From [Chlorobium] sp. 445 (GTDB lineage Bacteria > Bacteroidota > Chlorobiia > Chlorobiales > Thermochlorobacteraceae): a DNA stretch of 64,000 nucleotides. The notes beneath the pieces are model-generated. The model made no database searches. It was given only the letters and a program-made list of their open reading frames with translations, and was not told the origin of the DNA. A program made the position numbers and the translations under genes. Location: the NCBI GenBank assembly GCA_002763895.1, contig NSLH01000004.1, positions 62,001-126,000 on the forward strand, in the 5' to 3' direction. Each line of letters begins with the position of its first letter. Within the stretch, counting starts at the first letter, position 1. This document shows, piece after piece, positions 34,637 to 59,901 of this stretch.

Positions 34637-35509
34637 ATGCTCAAAAAACGAGTATGGGAAATTCTCGATGTTGCGCCTGAAAGTGATCGGGTGAGCCAAA
34701 TCGAGAGCACAATCATGTTCTCTTTGATTTTGCTCAATGCCACGGCCCTGATTCTCTCAACGGTCGAATCCCTTAACGAAAGCTATAGTGTGTGCTTTAC
34801 CTTGCTTGAAGATGTTTCCGTCGTGCTCTTTACGCTCGAATACCTTGGACGCCTGTGGTCGTGCACCGTTTTGCCCGAGTACCGCTCACCATTTTTAGGT
34901 CGACTTCGGTTCGTCTTTACGCTGGAATCCTTGATTGACTTACTGGCTATCTTACCTTTTTACCTCTCATTTGCAGATTTAGACTTGCGCATACTTTGGC
35001 TACTTAGGCTCTTACGCATTTTCCGACTGCTCAAACTTGCACGCTACTCTACTGCGGTTTCACTTCTTGGTGCTACGATTTACGCACGACGCGCCGAATT
35101 GATTGCAACTGGACTGCTCATGTTTCTTATCTTAATGATTGGCTCCACGCTGATGTTCTTTGCTGAGCGTGAAGCTCAACCCGACAAATTTCCTGACATT
35201 CCCACAGCTATGTGGTGGGCAGTGATTACGCTAACCACAATTGGTTATGGGGATGTTTTTCCTATTACCACGCTGGGCAAAGTGATTGGTGGCTTTATTG
35301 CTATCTTCGGCATCGGCTTTGTTGCACTGCCGACAGGCATCATTAGCGTTGGATTTGTTGAAGAGTTGCGTGCTTTCAAAGAAAGTCAGAAACAAAAATC
35401 CGCTGAAAAAGCCACAGACACACAAGACCCTGTTTCAGTCAAGTATGTTTGCCCACACTGTGGTAAAGAGATTGAAGTTTCGCTGCTCTCCAAGCCGAAG
35501 ACAGAATAA
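34637..35509 (+). CDS. voltage-gated potassium channel (Kv type)
   Basis: A six-transmembrane inner-membrane channel of 290 residues. The S4 voltage sensor carries regularly spaced positive charges (Arg118, Arg124, Arg127, Arg130, Lys133, Arg136). The selectivity filter is TTIGYGD (residues 200-206). After S6 comes a short cytoplasmic tail with a single CPHC pair (Cys272/Cys275) in YVCPHCGKEIEVSLL, half of a zinc ribbon. It is 17 bp downstream of pyrG; no functional link is implied. It would conduct K+ and help set membrane potential. Confidence 0.93.
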   Translation: MLKKRVWEILDVAPESDRVSQIESTIMFSLILLNATALILSTVESLNESYSVCFTLLEDVSVVLFTLEYLGRLWSCTVLPEYRSPFLGRLRFVFTLESLIDLLAILPFYLSFADLDLRILWLLRLLRIFRLLKLARYSTAVSLLGATIYARRAELIATGLLMFLILMIGSTLMFFAEREAQPDKFPDIPTAMWWAVITLTTIGYGDVFPITTLGKVIGGFIAIFGIGFVALPTGIISVGFVEELRAFKESQKQKSAEKATDTQDPVSVKYVCPHCGKEIEVSLLSKPKTE

Positions 35510-38272: not shown

Positions 38273-38596
38273 TTAGCGGGCAAAGAACGGCTTATCGTAC
38301 AGTTCCAGACGCTTTTCAGGTGTGAAGCGGAAATCCAGAATGTCGCCTTCGGGACGCACTTCAATGAGCGCGCCAGAGGGGCACGCATCTGCATCGAAGC
38401 ACAGTTGGCATGAAATGCACGCCTTCTGGTCAATGTAGTAGCGGAATCCTCCTTCTTGCACATCTCCGTAAAGTTTAACGCCAATTGCATTGACTTTGGG
38501 CGGGCATTGGTCCAAGCAGAACCCGCAGGCAATGCAGAGGTTCTCAATGATGTCGTATTTGTTCTTTACCCGCTTTTTGACTTTTGCTTCTGCCAT
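38273..38596 (-). CDS. pscB: photosystem P840 reaction centre iron-sulfur protein, short form
   Basis: A peripheral subunit carrying the FA/FB [4Fe-4S] clusters that pass electrons from FX to soluble ferredoxin. Cluster 1 ligands: Cys21, 24, 27, 31 (CIACGFCLDQCP). Cluster 2: Cys60, 63, 66, 72 (CISCQLCFDADACPSGAL), with the two-residue expansion before the last Cys. The ATG at 38596 has a GGAGG ribosome-binding site 7 bp upstream, so I reject a longer in-frame start at 38758, which would reach into the pscA 3' end and read through the hairpin. The result is 107 residues. The Chlorobaculum protein is, from memory, about 231 residues because of a Lys/Ala/Pro-rich N-terminal arm that is missing here. 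Confidence 0.93.
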   Translation of the reverse strand: MAEAKVKKRVKNKYDIIENLCIACGFCLDQCPPKVNAIGVKLYGDVQEGGFRYYIDQKACISCQLCFDADACPSGALIEVRPEGDILDFRFTPEKRLELYDKPFFAR

Positions 38597-38690
38597 CGGA
38601 AGACCTCCGTTCGAGAGTTTGAAAGTTTTAGAAGTTTGATTTACTGAATAATAAAACTCTTTTTTTCGTTCCGCAAACTCTTCGAGAGAT

Positions 38691-38724
38691 AAAAAAGGGG
38701 ACTTGGACGCGCCGTCCAGTCCCC
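38691..38724 (-). terminator. terminator-like hairpin between pscA and pscB
   Basis: GC-rich arms GGGGACTTGGAC (38697-38708) and GTCCAGTCCCC (38714-38724) pair over 11 bp with one bulged T and a 5-nt loop. Read on the minus strand, the hairpin is followed directly by six T (38691-38696). It lies 27 bp after the pscA stop and about 95 bp before the pscB start, so it probably acts as a partial terminator or processing/stability element. Confidence 0.85.
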
Positions 38725-38750
38725 CAAAAGTCTCGTGCTGCGAGAAAGAA

Positions 38751-41042
38751 CTACGCAATCAGTTTCAGCAGGAAGTCCACCATCTGTGCGAGCATATCGC
38801 TGCCAGCACGGGCGGCATCGCTCACTGGCGGTGGCGCTGGTTGATTTGTAGCATAGAATCCATTAGCTACATAGAGCCAGACCAGCATAAATGTACCGCT
38901 GAAATAGAGAATCGTGCCTGCAAACTTCGAGTCAGACAGGTTCAGCACTGGGAAGCGGAACTTGACGTCGCGTCCGAGGAAGGTCTTACCCAGCCAGCGA
39001 ATCGTGCGGGTCTGGATATCTGCGCCTTCCAAGCGCGAACCTCTGTCTTTGAACCACACAGCAAAGCTAATGAACCAGACCAGGTGTCCGAGCAGCAACA
39101 CCACTGTCAGGTGCGAACTTGCCCAGATTGCTTGGGTTTCTGTCCACATGTAGTAGAAGATACCACCGGTATAGTGATGCGAAAGTTTCGCAATACTATC
39201 CCAAGCGTTGCAGTCTGCTACTGCCATACCGTAGTTCATTGAAGCCAGCCATCCGCCATCAATGTACCATTCAATGACAGAGAGCGGTTTCACCGACCAA
39301 AGAATTGCAAACCACATCTGGTCTTGAATCGAGACACCGCATGTGCCGCCATAGACCGGACCGATGCACGGGAACGAGAAGGAGTTCTTCTTCAGACCCA
39401 AGTCATCCCACAGTGCAGAGGTATGCGAGAAGAATGCAATTCTCGAGGTTGCGACGGATGCAAAGAGCCACCCTGCGACAATGGCATGCCATGCGCACCA
39501 GTCATTGATGCTGGGGTCGGTGAACATCCATGCAAACATCGGCGTCGGTTTCAACCAGTAGAAACTCATCGTGATGTTTGCCCCCATCATATTGAGTTCG
39601 CACAGCGAGTTCCAGCAAATCACGGCATAGACGGAAATCATCGTCGTAAAGCACATCACCATGATGGTGCCGACAAATTTCACTTGGAATTCCTTGTCGC
39701 GTCCGAGCGCAATCCACTTAGACTTCAGTTGATTGTACAGACCCGACATTTGAATCTTCAAGAGATATTGTCCACCATGGAACACGCCTGAGAACACATA
39801 GAGGAAACCGCAGATGATGTGGTTGAATGCCACGAGGTTAATCACCACCTGCGCCATACCGAACACACGACCGTCTTTGGGCAGAATCGCATAGGGTGGA
39901 TATTCAGGATATTCGATCTTGGTCAAATCGGTGTTGCCATTCGCATCAAAGCCGACACGGTTGAAAGGTTCACCGTAGATGTAGTAGACCAAATCATTGA
40001 GTTGGGTATAGAAGAACTGCGGTCTATCGGTAAAGGCTGCGAAGGCAAACCAACCCAATGCGATATTGACGTAACCCATTGAGGTCAGGTGCACAGAGAA
40101 AATCGCTTTCAGATCATCGTTCAGATGCTCTGCAGCGCGTGGAGGATTTGCACGCCAGTAGAAGCCCAATGCTAGCCAGACGGCACCCCAGATGAAAGCC
40201 ATAAAGGCTTCGGAGTTAATCTTCTGGAAGTCAGGCTCCGGCGTAATCCCCAGAGCGAACCACATTACAAAGCCCCAAGCCAGGAAGAGGAAGCCTTGAT
40301 AGATGGTGTGAGGTCCAAGCGCTTCAGAGTAATTCTTTGCACTCGGTCCGCCAATGCCACCTGGAATGATACTTCCGAACATGCGGAAATCGCGGAAGTT
40401 ACCTGGCACGCTGGCTTGTTTGTAGTTCCAGAAAAAGAGGAAGGCAAGTGGGTTCGAGAGGTTGCTTGTCCAGTGCCGCCAACCGCCGAAGATCAGGAAG
40501 GCGCCCACTACAAAGTGAATGCCTGCCCACCAGAGCAGTTTGCGTGCCGCTTCCATTTGAGCAGCGGGATCAGCACTGTAGGTGTCAATACCCAGTGACA
40601 CCATACGCGGCTTAATCGTCAGATAGAACCAGTTGTCGTAGAACCCTGCTGCGCCATTTGGGAAAATTTGGATACCCGAGATGTAGTAGATACCCATCAC
40701 GATACCCAAGCACCCTAACAGCGCGAGGTGTCCACCAAACACCTGTTCATCAGTGAGTTTATCCGCGTCAAAGGCTTGAAACCATTTGGTTGTTCTGGTT
40801 TCAGTGCGCTTTAAGAGGAAGCGCTTCATTTCGCTTACGTCTGCTTCCATCACAACAGGCTTGCCAGACGCAGCGGCCGGCTTTGCTTCACCTGCTTTAG
40901 GTGCGGCTTTTGCCGCTGCGGCAGGTGCCGCTGCCGGTTTCTTAGCCGCAGCTTGAAGTTTCCCTGCTTGCGAAGGCGCAGGCTTCTTTTCGCTGCCGCC
41001 GCCACCTGGCGTTCCGCCAGTCGGTTTCTCTTGATCAGCCAT
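38751..41042 (-). CDS. pscA: photosystem P840 reaction centre large subunit
   Basis: The core of the homodimeric type I reaction centre: binds the P840 pair, antenna bacteriochlorophylls and the inter-subunit FX [4Fe-4S] cluster. Eleven transmembrane helices are expected. The FX loop FPCIGPVYGGTC provides Cys559 and Cys568 from each monomer. Segments such as WFYLTIKPRMVSLGIDTYS, FNHIICG and SRLEGADIQTRTIRWLGK are PscA hallmarks. The N terminus has a ~65-residue Ala/Pro/Lys/Gly-rich extension (KKPAAAPAAAAKAAPK). Total 763 residues; the Chlorobaculum protein is, as I recall, about 731. ATG 41042 follows AAAGGAG. pscB is downstream past a terminator-like hairpin; the B12-regulator gene is upstream on the same strand. 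Confidence 0.98.
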   Translation of the reverse strand: MADQEKPTGGTPGGGGSEKKPAPSQAGKLQAAAKKPAAAPAAAAKAAPKAGEAKPAAASGKPVVMEADVSEMKRFLLKRTETRTTKWFQAFDADKLTDEQVFGGHLALLGCLGIVMGIYYISGIQIFPNGAAGFYDNWFYLTIKPRMVSLGIDTYSADPAAQMEAARKLLWWAGIHFVVGAFLIFGGWRHWTSNLSNPLAFLFFWNYKQASVPGNFRDFRMFGSIIPGGIGGPSAKNYSEALGPHTIYQGFLFLAWGFVMWFALGITPEPDFQKINSEAFMAFIWGAVWLALGFYWRANPPRAAEHLNDDLKAIFSVHLTSMGYVNIALGWFAFAAFTDRPQFFYTQLNDLVYYIYGEPFNRVGFDANGNTDLTKIEYPEYPPYAILPKDGRVFGMAQVVINLVAFNHIICGFLYVFSGVFHGGQYLLKIQMSGLYNQLKSKWIALGRDKEFQVKFVGTIMVMCFTTMISVYAVICWNSLCELNMMGANITMSFYWLKPTPMFAWMFTDPSINDWCAWHAIVAGWLFASVATSRIAFFSHTSALWDDLGLKKNSFSFPCIGPVYGGTCGVSIQDQMWFAILWSVKPLSVIEWYIDGGWLASMNYGMAVADCNAWDSIAKLSHHYTGGIFYYMWTETQAIWASSHLTVVLLLGHLVWFISFAVWFKDRGSRLEGADIQTRTIRWLGKTFLGRDVKFRFPVLNLSDSKFAGTILYFSGTFMLVWLYVANGFYATNQPAPPPVSDAARAGSDMLAQMVDFLLKLIA

Positions 41043-41386
41043 AGTCTTCTCCTTTAAGTTTGAAACAAGGTGATGATCATTTTACCTCTGTTCGCCTTAC
41101 CTAATCGTTCATTTTAAGCGGCGAACAAACGCGTGAAGTTTGACCAGCAGCCTATTTGCGTCAGAATAGACTGCCTTTGGTACTGCTTCAAACTTTTCAA
41201 AGAACAGAACAGAACTCTCTGTTGCAACTTTACTACTATGGTACGACTTTTTACTGCGCCTCCTTACGCTAGGAGCGTCTCTGCGTCGAGGCCAAACCCA
41301 GAGAGCGATACTGCATTTGACTTGAAAGAACAGGTGATAAGTTCATTTTTGAATCAGTAAAGAAAGAACACTTAAACTCTCTGCTT
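41043..41386 (-). promoter_or_regulatory. pscA upstream region
   Basis: A 344-bp gap between the regulator stop and pscA. It has a good ribosome-binding site (AAAGGAG, about 41050). On the minus strand there are two TAAAAT -10-like elements (about 41080 and 41113). A 7-bp inverted repeat GTTCGCC (41090-41096) / GGCGAAC (41120-41126) flanks one of them. Also present: AGAAC three times in direct repeat (41201-41215) and a small palindrome ACGCT-AGG-AGCGT (41266-41278). None is proven. A separate pscA promoter is likely because the gap is long. Confidence 0.4.
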
Positions 41387-42448
41387 TTAATTCTTGAGCA
41401 TACGCTCGTTACGTGTTTTATAGATGACTTCGAAATTTTCGCGCAAATACTGCTCAAGTTCTGTTAGGGTTCTTGCACGAAAATCCGCCTTAAACATCTG
41501 AGATTTACGCTCACCAATAAATTGCCCACCTAAGATGAACCGCACGCCACGCTTTTTCAGGAATCGTTTGAAGAGCTCGAAGCGTCGATATGTTGTTGCA
41601 CTTACTTTTGCGACGGTTACCGACATACAGACAATCGTAGGCTTAACTTCTTCCACAACATGCTCCAAATCTTTGAAGGGTACCGCCGCGCCGACATAAC
41701 TGACATCCATCCCTAAACTCTGACAGACAAGCGAGACCCCTAACAGTCCAACTTCGTGATACTCAGATTCAGGACAAGTACAAACCACAGCCACTGGTTT
41801 TGGAGTAGGCAATGCCATGGGCAACACATCATCAGTCTTTCGCGTGCCATGTTGTGCCGTGCCATTCATCGTCAAGTTTACATTGATGCCTGCTGCTTCT
41901 CGTGTTGAAAACCGCTCGGCATCTAACAGTCCTTTTTCATAGTGTGCTTTCACGGCGAGCACCGACTCAATCATGATATTCGTGATAATGTGCTCTTCGC
42001 CCACACCCAGTTTTTTTGCCGCCCATAAATCCCCGATGCGATGCATGGCTGGCGCAATCATCTTGTCAAAGAGCGTTGCAAACGAGATGCCTTGTTCAAC
42101 TGCTTTGCTGAGCAAGGCTTCGACCTCCTTTTTGCGGAAGGCTAAGAGCAACTCCGTGAGCTTGTTTGCTAAACTTTCAACATCGCCGCGCACCAACAAA
42201 ATCTCACTGCTAATATCAATGCTTTCAGCATAGTTCTTTTCGAGATTCAGTCGCTCTAATTGCGCTGGTGGAATTTCAATGTTGTTCTTGCTGATAAATT
42301 CCAGAACATCCTCGAGCTTGAACTTACGATGCCCACCGAGTGTCTTGTGATGCTTAATCAAGCCCATATTGGACCAGCGCTTGACAGTTGTTTCGCCAAC
42401 TGCGCACAATTCTGAAAGCTCTTTGGTCGAGAAAAACTGCGTCACCAT
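41387..42448 (-). CDS. MerR-type regulator with cobalamin-binding photoreceptor-like domain (CarH-class)
   Basis: A 353-residue transcription regulator. The N-terminal MerR helix-turn-helix (residues about 5-75: TTVKRWSNMGLIKHHKTLGGHRKF) is followed by a four-helix B12-cap domain (about 90-175) and a Rossmann B12-binding domain (about 218-345). The cap has Trp142, nine residues, then Glu152-His153 (W-x9-E-H). The Rossmann domain has E229-x-His231-x-x-Gly234, where His231 would be the lower axial cobalt ligand. In CarH these features bind adenosylcobalamin and permit light-triggered release from DNA. A linker of about 35 residues (182-217) is longer than usual. ATG 42448 has an AGGAG ribosome-binding site. 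Directly upstream of pscA on the same strand. Target genes are inferred, not shown. Confidence 0.9.
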   Translation of the reverse strand: MVTQFFSTKELSELCAVGETTVKRWSNMGLIKHHKTLGGHRKFKLEDVLEFISKNNIEIPPAQLERLNLEKNYAESIDISSEILLVRGDVESLANKLTELLLAFRKKEVEALLSKAVEQGISFATLFDKMIAPAMHRIGDLWAAKKLGVGEEHIITNIMIESVLAVKAHYEKGLLDAERFSTREAAGINVNLTMNGTAQHGTRKTDDVLPMALPTPKPVAVVCTCPESEYHEVGLLGVSLVCQSLGMDVSYVGAAVPFKDLEHVVEEVKPTIVCMSVTVAKVSATTYRRFELFKRFLKKRGVRFILGGQFIGERKSQMFKADFRARTLTELEQYLRENFEVIYKTRNERMLKN

Positions 42449-42723
42449 ACTTCGGCGCTCCTCGTTTTATTGCTGTTACTTTCGCACGGCTTGAAGCCAA
42501 TGAACCATTTTTTTGCATAACTAACATACAAAAACTGCTCGCGCTATGCAACTCATTGCCTTCGTATTCCATAGAAGAATGTTCCGTTTTTCGCAACTGC
42601 TAAGATTCCATTTTCTTGTGTCTTAGATTAGAAAACGGCTTTTTCGTCTCCCTCAGTAAGTCAATGCCCTGCAGTGGCGTCTGGACATCGTCTCTGGCTT
42701 CTTTTGCGCAAGAGCCTCGAAAT

Positions 42724-42780: not shown

Positions 42781-43056
42781 TTACTTATTGACCGCATTTT
42801 TCAATGCTGTACCCGGACGAAACCGAGCAATTTTCTTGGCTTTAATTTTGATGGTTGCGCCAGTCTTTGGATTGCGCCCTACACGAGCAGCTCGCTTTCC
42901 TACAGAGAATGTTCCAAACCCGATCAGCGTAACGGTCTGACCTTTCTTTAATGAGTTCGTTACGGCTTCAATAAATGCGTTGACTGCCTTCTCTGATGCT
43001 GCTTTTGAAATGCCTGCATCTTTGGCAATCTTGTCTACGATGTCGGCTTTAGACAT
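42781..43056 (-). CDS. HU-family DNA-binding protein
   Basis: A 91-residue nucleoid protein. The family signature [21 protein letters not shown] and the beta-arm Pro (RNPKTG) are present. N-terminal helices begin [24 protein letters not shown]. The ATG at 43056 follows AAAGGAGACG. It is divergent from efp and followed by a clear terminator. HU versus IHF-type cannot be fully decided, but the length and sequence favour HU. Confidence 0.95.
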
Positions 43057-59315: not shown

Positions 59316-59388
59316 CACGGGCGGTAGGAATCGAACCCACAACCTGCGGTTTTGGAGACCGCTGCTCTACCAATTGAGCTACACCCGT
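59316..59388 (-). tRNA. tRNA-Trp (CCA)
   Basis: A full cloverleaf on the minus strand. Acceptor ACGGGTG pairs with CGCCCGT, the D arm contains AGCTCAATTGGTAGAGC, anticodon CCA lies in loop TCTCCAAAA, and the T arm has GGTTCGATTCC. The 3' CCA is not encoded. Directly upstream of secE, the usual place. Confidence 0.96.
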
Positions 59389-59521
59389 AAGTCAGTCCTT
59401 GCTGAAAGTTATCATCAACTCTCGCACCGACACATGCAAACCTTGTGGGCACTTACGCCGTTATTTGAACGCGCTTTGAGCGCAATGACTTTGCTGCACT
59501 GCCCACCTGTCGTTTAGCTTG

Positions 59522-59594
<73 letters not shown>

Positions 59595-59614
59595 ATGTCC
59601 CTTTGATTTCTGTG

Positions 59615-59697
59615 TGGGTAGGGAAGGATTCGAACCTCCGAAGACATAAGTCAACTGATTTACAGTCAGTCGCGTTTGACCACTTCGCTACCTACCC
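59615..59697 (-). tRNA. tRNA-Tyr (GTA)
   Basis: A minus-strand class II tRNA with a long variable arm (about 83 nt). Acceptor GGGTAGG / CCTACCC, anticodon GTA in loop CTGTAAA, T arm GGTTCGAATCC. CCA is not encoded. Confidence 0.96.
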
Positions 59698-59828
59698 TTT
59701 TTTGAAGATTCGCTTTTAGAACTTGGCGCGCATCAACATGCGAAGTGTTGTTAGACACTAACCTGCTAGACCATCACTTCAACACCTAAGCGGTCACTTC
59801 CACCAGAAATCAGAACTTAGCGTCTTTG

Positions 59829-59901
59829 AGCTGGTGGAGGGACTTGAACCCCCGGCCAGCTGATTACAAATCAGCTGCTCTACCAACTGAGCTACACCAG
59901 C
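59829..59901 (-). tRNA. tRNA-Thr (TGT)
   Basis: Minus-strand cloverleaf. Acceptor GCTGGTG / CACCAGC, D arm AGCTCAGTTGGTAGAGC, anticodon TGT in loop TTTGTAA, T arm GGTTCAAGTCC. CCA is not encoded. First gene of the tRNA-secE-nusG-rpl block in transcription order. Confidence 0.95.

Follow-up and report, generated by a model that had tools for sequence, protein, structure and literature searches.

A gene for a B12-binding regulator, labelled REG here, and pscA, the gene for the type I reaction-centre core protein, form a real and conserved pairing in Chlorobia outside the Chlorobiaceae, one that has apparently not been described previously. We propose, with somewhat more confidence than doubt, that REG is an AdoCbl-binding, probably light-responsive transcription regulator akin to CarH and CtMerR, that it is devoted to pscA and that it acts as an activator in its dark state. 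Direct control of pscA by REG is well supported, though by the gene context only, and we infer AdoCbl binding, photolysis, an oligomer switch, DNA sites and the sign of regulation.

The pair was found in a stretch of 64,000 nucleotides of contig NSLH01000004.1, which we call the window, from a genome (G000) in the class Chlorobia that resembles Candidatus Thermochlorobacter; a second genome of the same genus, G096, includes contig PHFL01000030.1 (Ca. T. aerophilum). REG is a protein of 353 aa encoded on the minus strand at 41387..42448, and it is followed, on the same strand and after 344 bp, by pscA (38751..41042, minus strand; 763 aa, PF00223, orthologues in 92 of 98 Chlorobia genomes), which confirms the placement given by the first-pass annotation. 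The gene for the 2x[4Fe-4S] reaction-centre subunit, pscB, lies at 38273..38596 on the minus strand and encodes 107 aa from a conserved ATG; a 161-aa call from an upstream TTG start was rejected, as the ATG giving MAEAKVKK is conserved in relatives. All three domains claimed for REG were recovered by domain search, namely an excisionase/MerR-type helix-turn-helix (HTH_17, residues 6-55), a B12 cap (B12-binding_2, residues 94-163, E 1.8e-14) and a B12 Rossmann domain (B12-binding, residues 221-314, E 5.3e-8). The residues W142, E152, H153, E229 and H231 stand exactly where they had been placed and are invariant in the 12 aligned orthologues, and the E229-x-H231-x-x-G234 motif held up in its Glu and His only, position 234 being G, A or P. 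The gene 5′ of REG in the window encodes HU (42781-43056), and the hairpin and following run of T between the two suggest that REG is probably insulated from it. Elsewhere in the window lie a cluster of four tRNA genes (59316-59901, minus strand) and a gene for an ion-channel-like membrane protein (34637-35509, plus strand; PF00520, PF07885), the latter flanked by genes that read from their sequence as CTP synthase-like and dapD-like. On another contig of the same genome (G000:C19:31312-31616; L097, L099) an in-frame TGA splits a B12-binding domain across two frames, so that either the gene is broken or the assembly is at fault.

Orthologues were sought in 98 Chlorobia genomes, 86 of them in family f2, which we take to be the Chlorobiaceae, and 12 outside it, representing 7 genera in 3 families. 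REG is present in each of these 12, directly 5′ of pscA and on the same strand, with a gap of 142-356 bp, and it is missing from all 86 Chlorobiaceae genomes; in those Chlorobiaceae that were examined, its place before pscA is occupied by a divergent dapF-like gene. The regulator-pscA order is thus not general to Chlorobi, as it holds throughout the sampled genomes outside the Chlorobiaceae and in none of the 86 searched within that family. Conservation of the neighbourhood in relatives, named beforehand as a test of the idea, was borne out in 12 of 12. Outside the genus almost no other neighbour in the window holds its place. The genes 5′ of REG, all but the desaturase named from sequence reading, vary between HU, mnmE-like, carotenoid desaturase-like, transaldolase-like and others, and it is this shuffling of all other neighbours that serves as the control and makes the REG-pscA pair meaningful. 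Even pscB is separable, as in two genomes of genus g4 (G093 and G095) it lies apart from pscA while the REG-pscA pair is intact; at the g4 loci L073 and L075 pscB is not found 3′ of pscA. We propose a group of B12-dependent MerR regulators of the type I reaction centre, for which this gene order was seen in 12 of 12 genomes. Genome G096 (13% contamination) holds two copies of pscA (contigs C37, C38 and C39), the second of which, on C39, resembles that of genus g4. A CrtD/CrtH-like carotenoid desaturase/isomerase gene lies directly 5′ of REG in G090 and G088 and one gene away in G092 (L072:8870-10438, L079:7151-8644 and L074:5225-6796), and that of the window genome lies elsewhere, on G000:C5.

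The 12 pscA-linked proteins form a single clade with a support of 100/100 and a long stem in the maximum-likelihood tree, separate from the ordinary CarH-like regulators of Bacteroidota; the tree gives no firm position to CtMerR, which sits on a long branch, or to TtCarH. Among 395 Bacteroidota genomes the nearest other matches to REG are CarH-like proteins that are at most 39% identical; a scan of genome contigs gave only two close relatives, and searches of plasmids and viral contigs gave no match. In the PDB the best match by sequence (E 5.1e-30) and by fold (Foldseek E 5.8e-13, target TM 0.82, using an AlphaFold model of moderate confidence with a mean pLDDT of 68 and 3 sequences) is the same entry, 8JBS, which is CtMerR and, per the PDB description, comes from Chloracidobacterium thermophilum.

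The first-pass annotation had called REG a CarH-class photoreceptor-like regulator, and this claim survives in part. In its favour are the domain architecture, the adenosyl and cobalt contacts and CtMerR as the best PDB match, and against it stand the equivalog score, the Gly of GxxH and the residue corresponding to CarH His132. The SignatureFinder signature of light-responsive AdoCbl domains, as given by Yu et al. (PMC11796333), consists of GxxW, EH, GxxH and GxxxP. Three of these four motifs are found in all 12 orthologues, GxxW, EH (E152-H153) and GxxxP (as GAAVP and variants), and the E-x-H cobalt-ligand motif is also kept in 12 of 12; in place of GxxH, 11 orthologues have SxxH and one has IxxH, with His231 invariant. 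In the crystal structure of CtMerR (8JBS) this Gly touches the corrin through its main-chain carbonyl (PMC11796333), so loss of the motif need not abolish binding in REG and its tolerance is plausible. An equivalent of CarH His132 is absent from the 12 orthologues, which have A, C, S or E after the Trp; CtMerR, SasPcob and AbDPcob likewise do without it (PMC11796333). Against the NCBIfam equivalog NF052513 (TransRegCarH), with its curated cut-off of 400 bits, REG scores 54.5 bits and two orthologues 56.8 and 43.4, all far below the cut-off, and REG is therefore not CarH in the strict sense. That REG is a photoreceptor is a likely reading.

Comparison with the known B12 photoreceptors places REG beside CtMerR (WP_157850694, PDB 8JBS/8JBT), with which it shares the order of HTH, B12 cap and Rossmann domain, the W/EH/ExH residues, the want of a His132 equivalent and a host that is a type I reaction-centre phototroph. 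The two are just 23-24% identical over the Foldseek alignment, GxxH is intact in CtMerR and not in REG, and REG has a long linker (165-217) that CtMerR does not. C. thermophilum is a phototroph of mats, and its type I reaction centre is a homodimer. CtMerR binds AdoCbl, bleaches at 530 nm and goes from tetramer to monomer, while crystals lit without oxygen show a broken Co-C bond and no monomerisation (PMC11796333); its structure and photochemistry are thus known, and the text consulted names neither its targets nor its gene neighbourhood. CarH/LitR of Thermus thermophilus and Myxococcus xanthus make the contacts W131/E141/H142/H177, all of which have equivalents in REG, and both kinds of protein carry a MerR DNA-binding domain, yet this domain is also counted among the differences, together with the control of carotenoid genes by CarH/LitR, their bis-His light state involving His132 and the score of REG below the CarH equivalog cut-off. 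The photocobilins SasPcob and AbDPcob share a CarH-like B12 domain with REG, which in their case is a light-responsive AdoCbl domain; unlike REG they have a bilin-binding domain, no HTH and an enzyme or signalling output. AerR has an architecture different from that of REG. In Rhodobacter capsulatus this cobalamin-binding photoreceptor affects puf, puc and puh (PMC6199135), and its effect on reaction-centre genes (puf, puh) resembles the candidate role of REG. It works through its partner CrtJ and on a type II photosystem, whereas REG is linked to type I. Given AerR, control of a reaction centre by B12 is not wholly new, and the first-pass annotation was too strong in holding that it would be new.

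A putative -7-like promoter element, TATGTTAG, lies at 42521..42528 (minus strand), 80 nt upstream of the REG start, and an element of the TAAGTT/TAACTT type, a consensus defined post hoc from sequences already seen, occurs 65-120 nt 5′ of REG in relatives. No such element is conserved in the REG-pscA gap, so REG and pscA may be co-transcribed and autoregulated. The gap itself contains two copies of TGTTCTTT in the window, at 41363..41370 and 41325..41332 (both minus strand), which are candidate operators or regulatory repeats. This motif occurs 14 times in 8 of the 12 REG-pscA gaps, against 0.3 expected, and not at all in 19 Chlorobiaceae; the gap-enriched motifs are absent from Chloroherpeton and its relatives, and in genera g1 and g2 one TGTTCTTT copy per leader forms the anti-Shine-Dalgarno strand of the RNA described below. 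Two further motifs, AAATGAAC and AGTTTGAA, were rejected as operator half-sites because both lie within helices or a loop of this leader RNA.

The predicted leader covers 41040..41205 (minus strand), 166 nt that end with the pscA start, and adopts a three-way junction fold in genera g1 and g2 (fold z = -3.8 in the window). In an alignment of 4 genomes 89% of cells are paired, slid controls reach no more than 56%, and both partners have changed in 9 pairs. Helix 1, in which UUCUUU (41199..41204, minus strand) is predicted by the MFE fold to bind the Shine-Dalgarno region of pscA (AAAGGAGA, 41048-41055), is 100% paired in the 4 genomes. A covariance model of the leader gives one match per genome, at pscA only, and no Rfam family matches there. 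The loop of P3 contains AAAUGAAC, and the leader has equivalents in L070, L071 and L072. Most of the remaining genomes of family f1 have folds of similar plan, with z from -2.2 to -3.5, the exception being G094 (z -0.7), so that strong folds are seen in 8 of the 9 f1 genomes. The model built on 4 genomes does not raise the g3 and g4 leaders above background, and the leader in these genera is thus suggestive only, its homology to that of g1 and g2 unproven. We relied on the 4-genome alignment and its covariation, since an alignment of 8 leaders was unusable for folding, its helices having been misaligned by MAFFT, and a raw count of compensatory changes across leaders is inflated because any two hairpins compared from the base look compensatory. 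The fold is absent from families f3 and f4, Chloroherpeton and its relatives, though REG is present there.

Our preferred model runs as follows. In the dark, the cap (W142, E152-H153) and the Rossmann domain, with His231 on the cobalt, would enclose intact AdoCbl, and AdoCbl-bound REG would form a tetramer that binds DNA at the REG promoter, in the gap before pscA or at both places. Light would break the Co-C bond, loosening the tetramer and releasing the DNA; oxygen may be a second input beside light, as suggested by the failure of CtMerR to monomerise in its anaerobic light state. The DNA-bound dark form would probably support pscA expression, unlike CarH, in which the dark state is the repressing one, and the usual role of MerR proteins is that of an activator. 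The cofactor is likely available, as 12 of 12 REG genomes carry a gene for a CobA/BtuR adenosyltransferase and 11 have cobalamin riboswitches; G087 and G088 alone have a PduO-type adenosyltransferase that exceeds its family cut-off, and it does so in none of the Thermochlorobacter family. The sign of regulation is suggested by a diel metatranscriptome of a hot-spring mat, Thermochlorobacter included, in which anoxygenic reaction-centre expression was higher at night, a statement made for anoxygenic phototrophs in general in which pscA is not named (PMC11788075). The reported night-time peak conflicts with the CarH rule of dark repression if this is carried over to REG, making simple dark repression unlikely and favouring a dark-state activator. 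Night also brings anoxia, and another factor may set the rhythm.

The same binding residues would serve equally well if REG were to read the supply of AdoCbl and not light, tying synthesis of the reaction centre to B12 availability, with light merely an unavoidable disturbance. Both BchE-type bacteriochlorophyll synthesis and MetH need B12. The riboswitches of 11 of the 12 genomes indicate that B12 supply is monitored, and the Thermochlorobacter family, with its CobA-type enzyme and no PduO-type one over the cut-off, also fits such a sensor. We consider it unlikely, however, as there is no obvious reason why a B12-status sensor should be fixed to pscA alone, and the Trp, Glu and His that contact the adenosyl group are invariant, a set whose tested bearers respond to light (PMC11796333).

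Were REG instead to follow the logic of CarH, its AdoCbl tetramer would repress REG and pscA in the dark and light would derepress them, as is the case for TtCarH, and CtMerR undergoes the same light-driven oligomer change (PMC11796333). The shared strand and the lack of a conserved promoter before pscA would also permit autorepression of a single operon, but the higher night-time expression reported for reaction centres of anoxygenic mat phototrophs (PMC11788075) leaves this arrangement improbable. Finally, pscA could be set mainly by its leader RNA, through Shine-Dalgarno sequestration, and by oxygen regulators, with REG controlling something else such as carotenoid genes. The covarying helices of 4 genomes and the strong folds of family f1 speak for such a role of the RNA, and the CrtD/CrtH-like neighbour of REG in G090 and G088 for such a target. 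This we hold to be very unlikely, because Chloroherpeton and its relatives have REG and no leader, and because a carotenoid gene adjoins REG in some genomes only, while adjacency to pscA is universal in the group.

No paper in the literature searched names a regulator that governs transcription of the type I reaction centre of green bacteria, and the REG-pscA pair makes control of these reaction centres testable, directly so in cultured Chloroherpeton thalassium, which G087 presumably represents. The link to pscA also suggests a target for CtMerR. The Chlorobi reaction centre is reported to be sister to that of C. thermophilum (PMC9342728). At its most speculative, in a form that we regard as doubtful, the pair would be a portable module of sensor and reaction centre, in which an AdoCbl gate for light (and oxygen) acts in the opposite sense to CarH and turns on type I reaction-centre genes in darkness. 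This module would be found in Chlorobi and, through CtMerR, in Chloracidobacterium, and sensor and reaction centre may have passed jointly from one phylum to another. If the proposed role of REG is true, no earlier AdoCbl photoreceptor would have been linked to a type I reaction centre.
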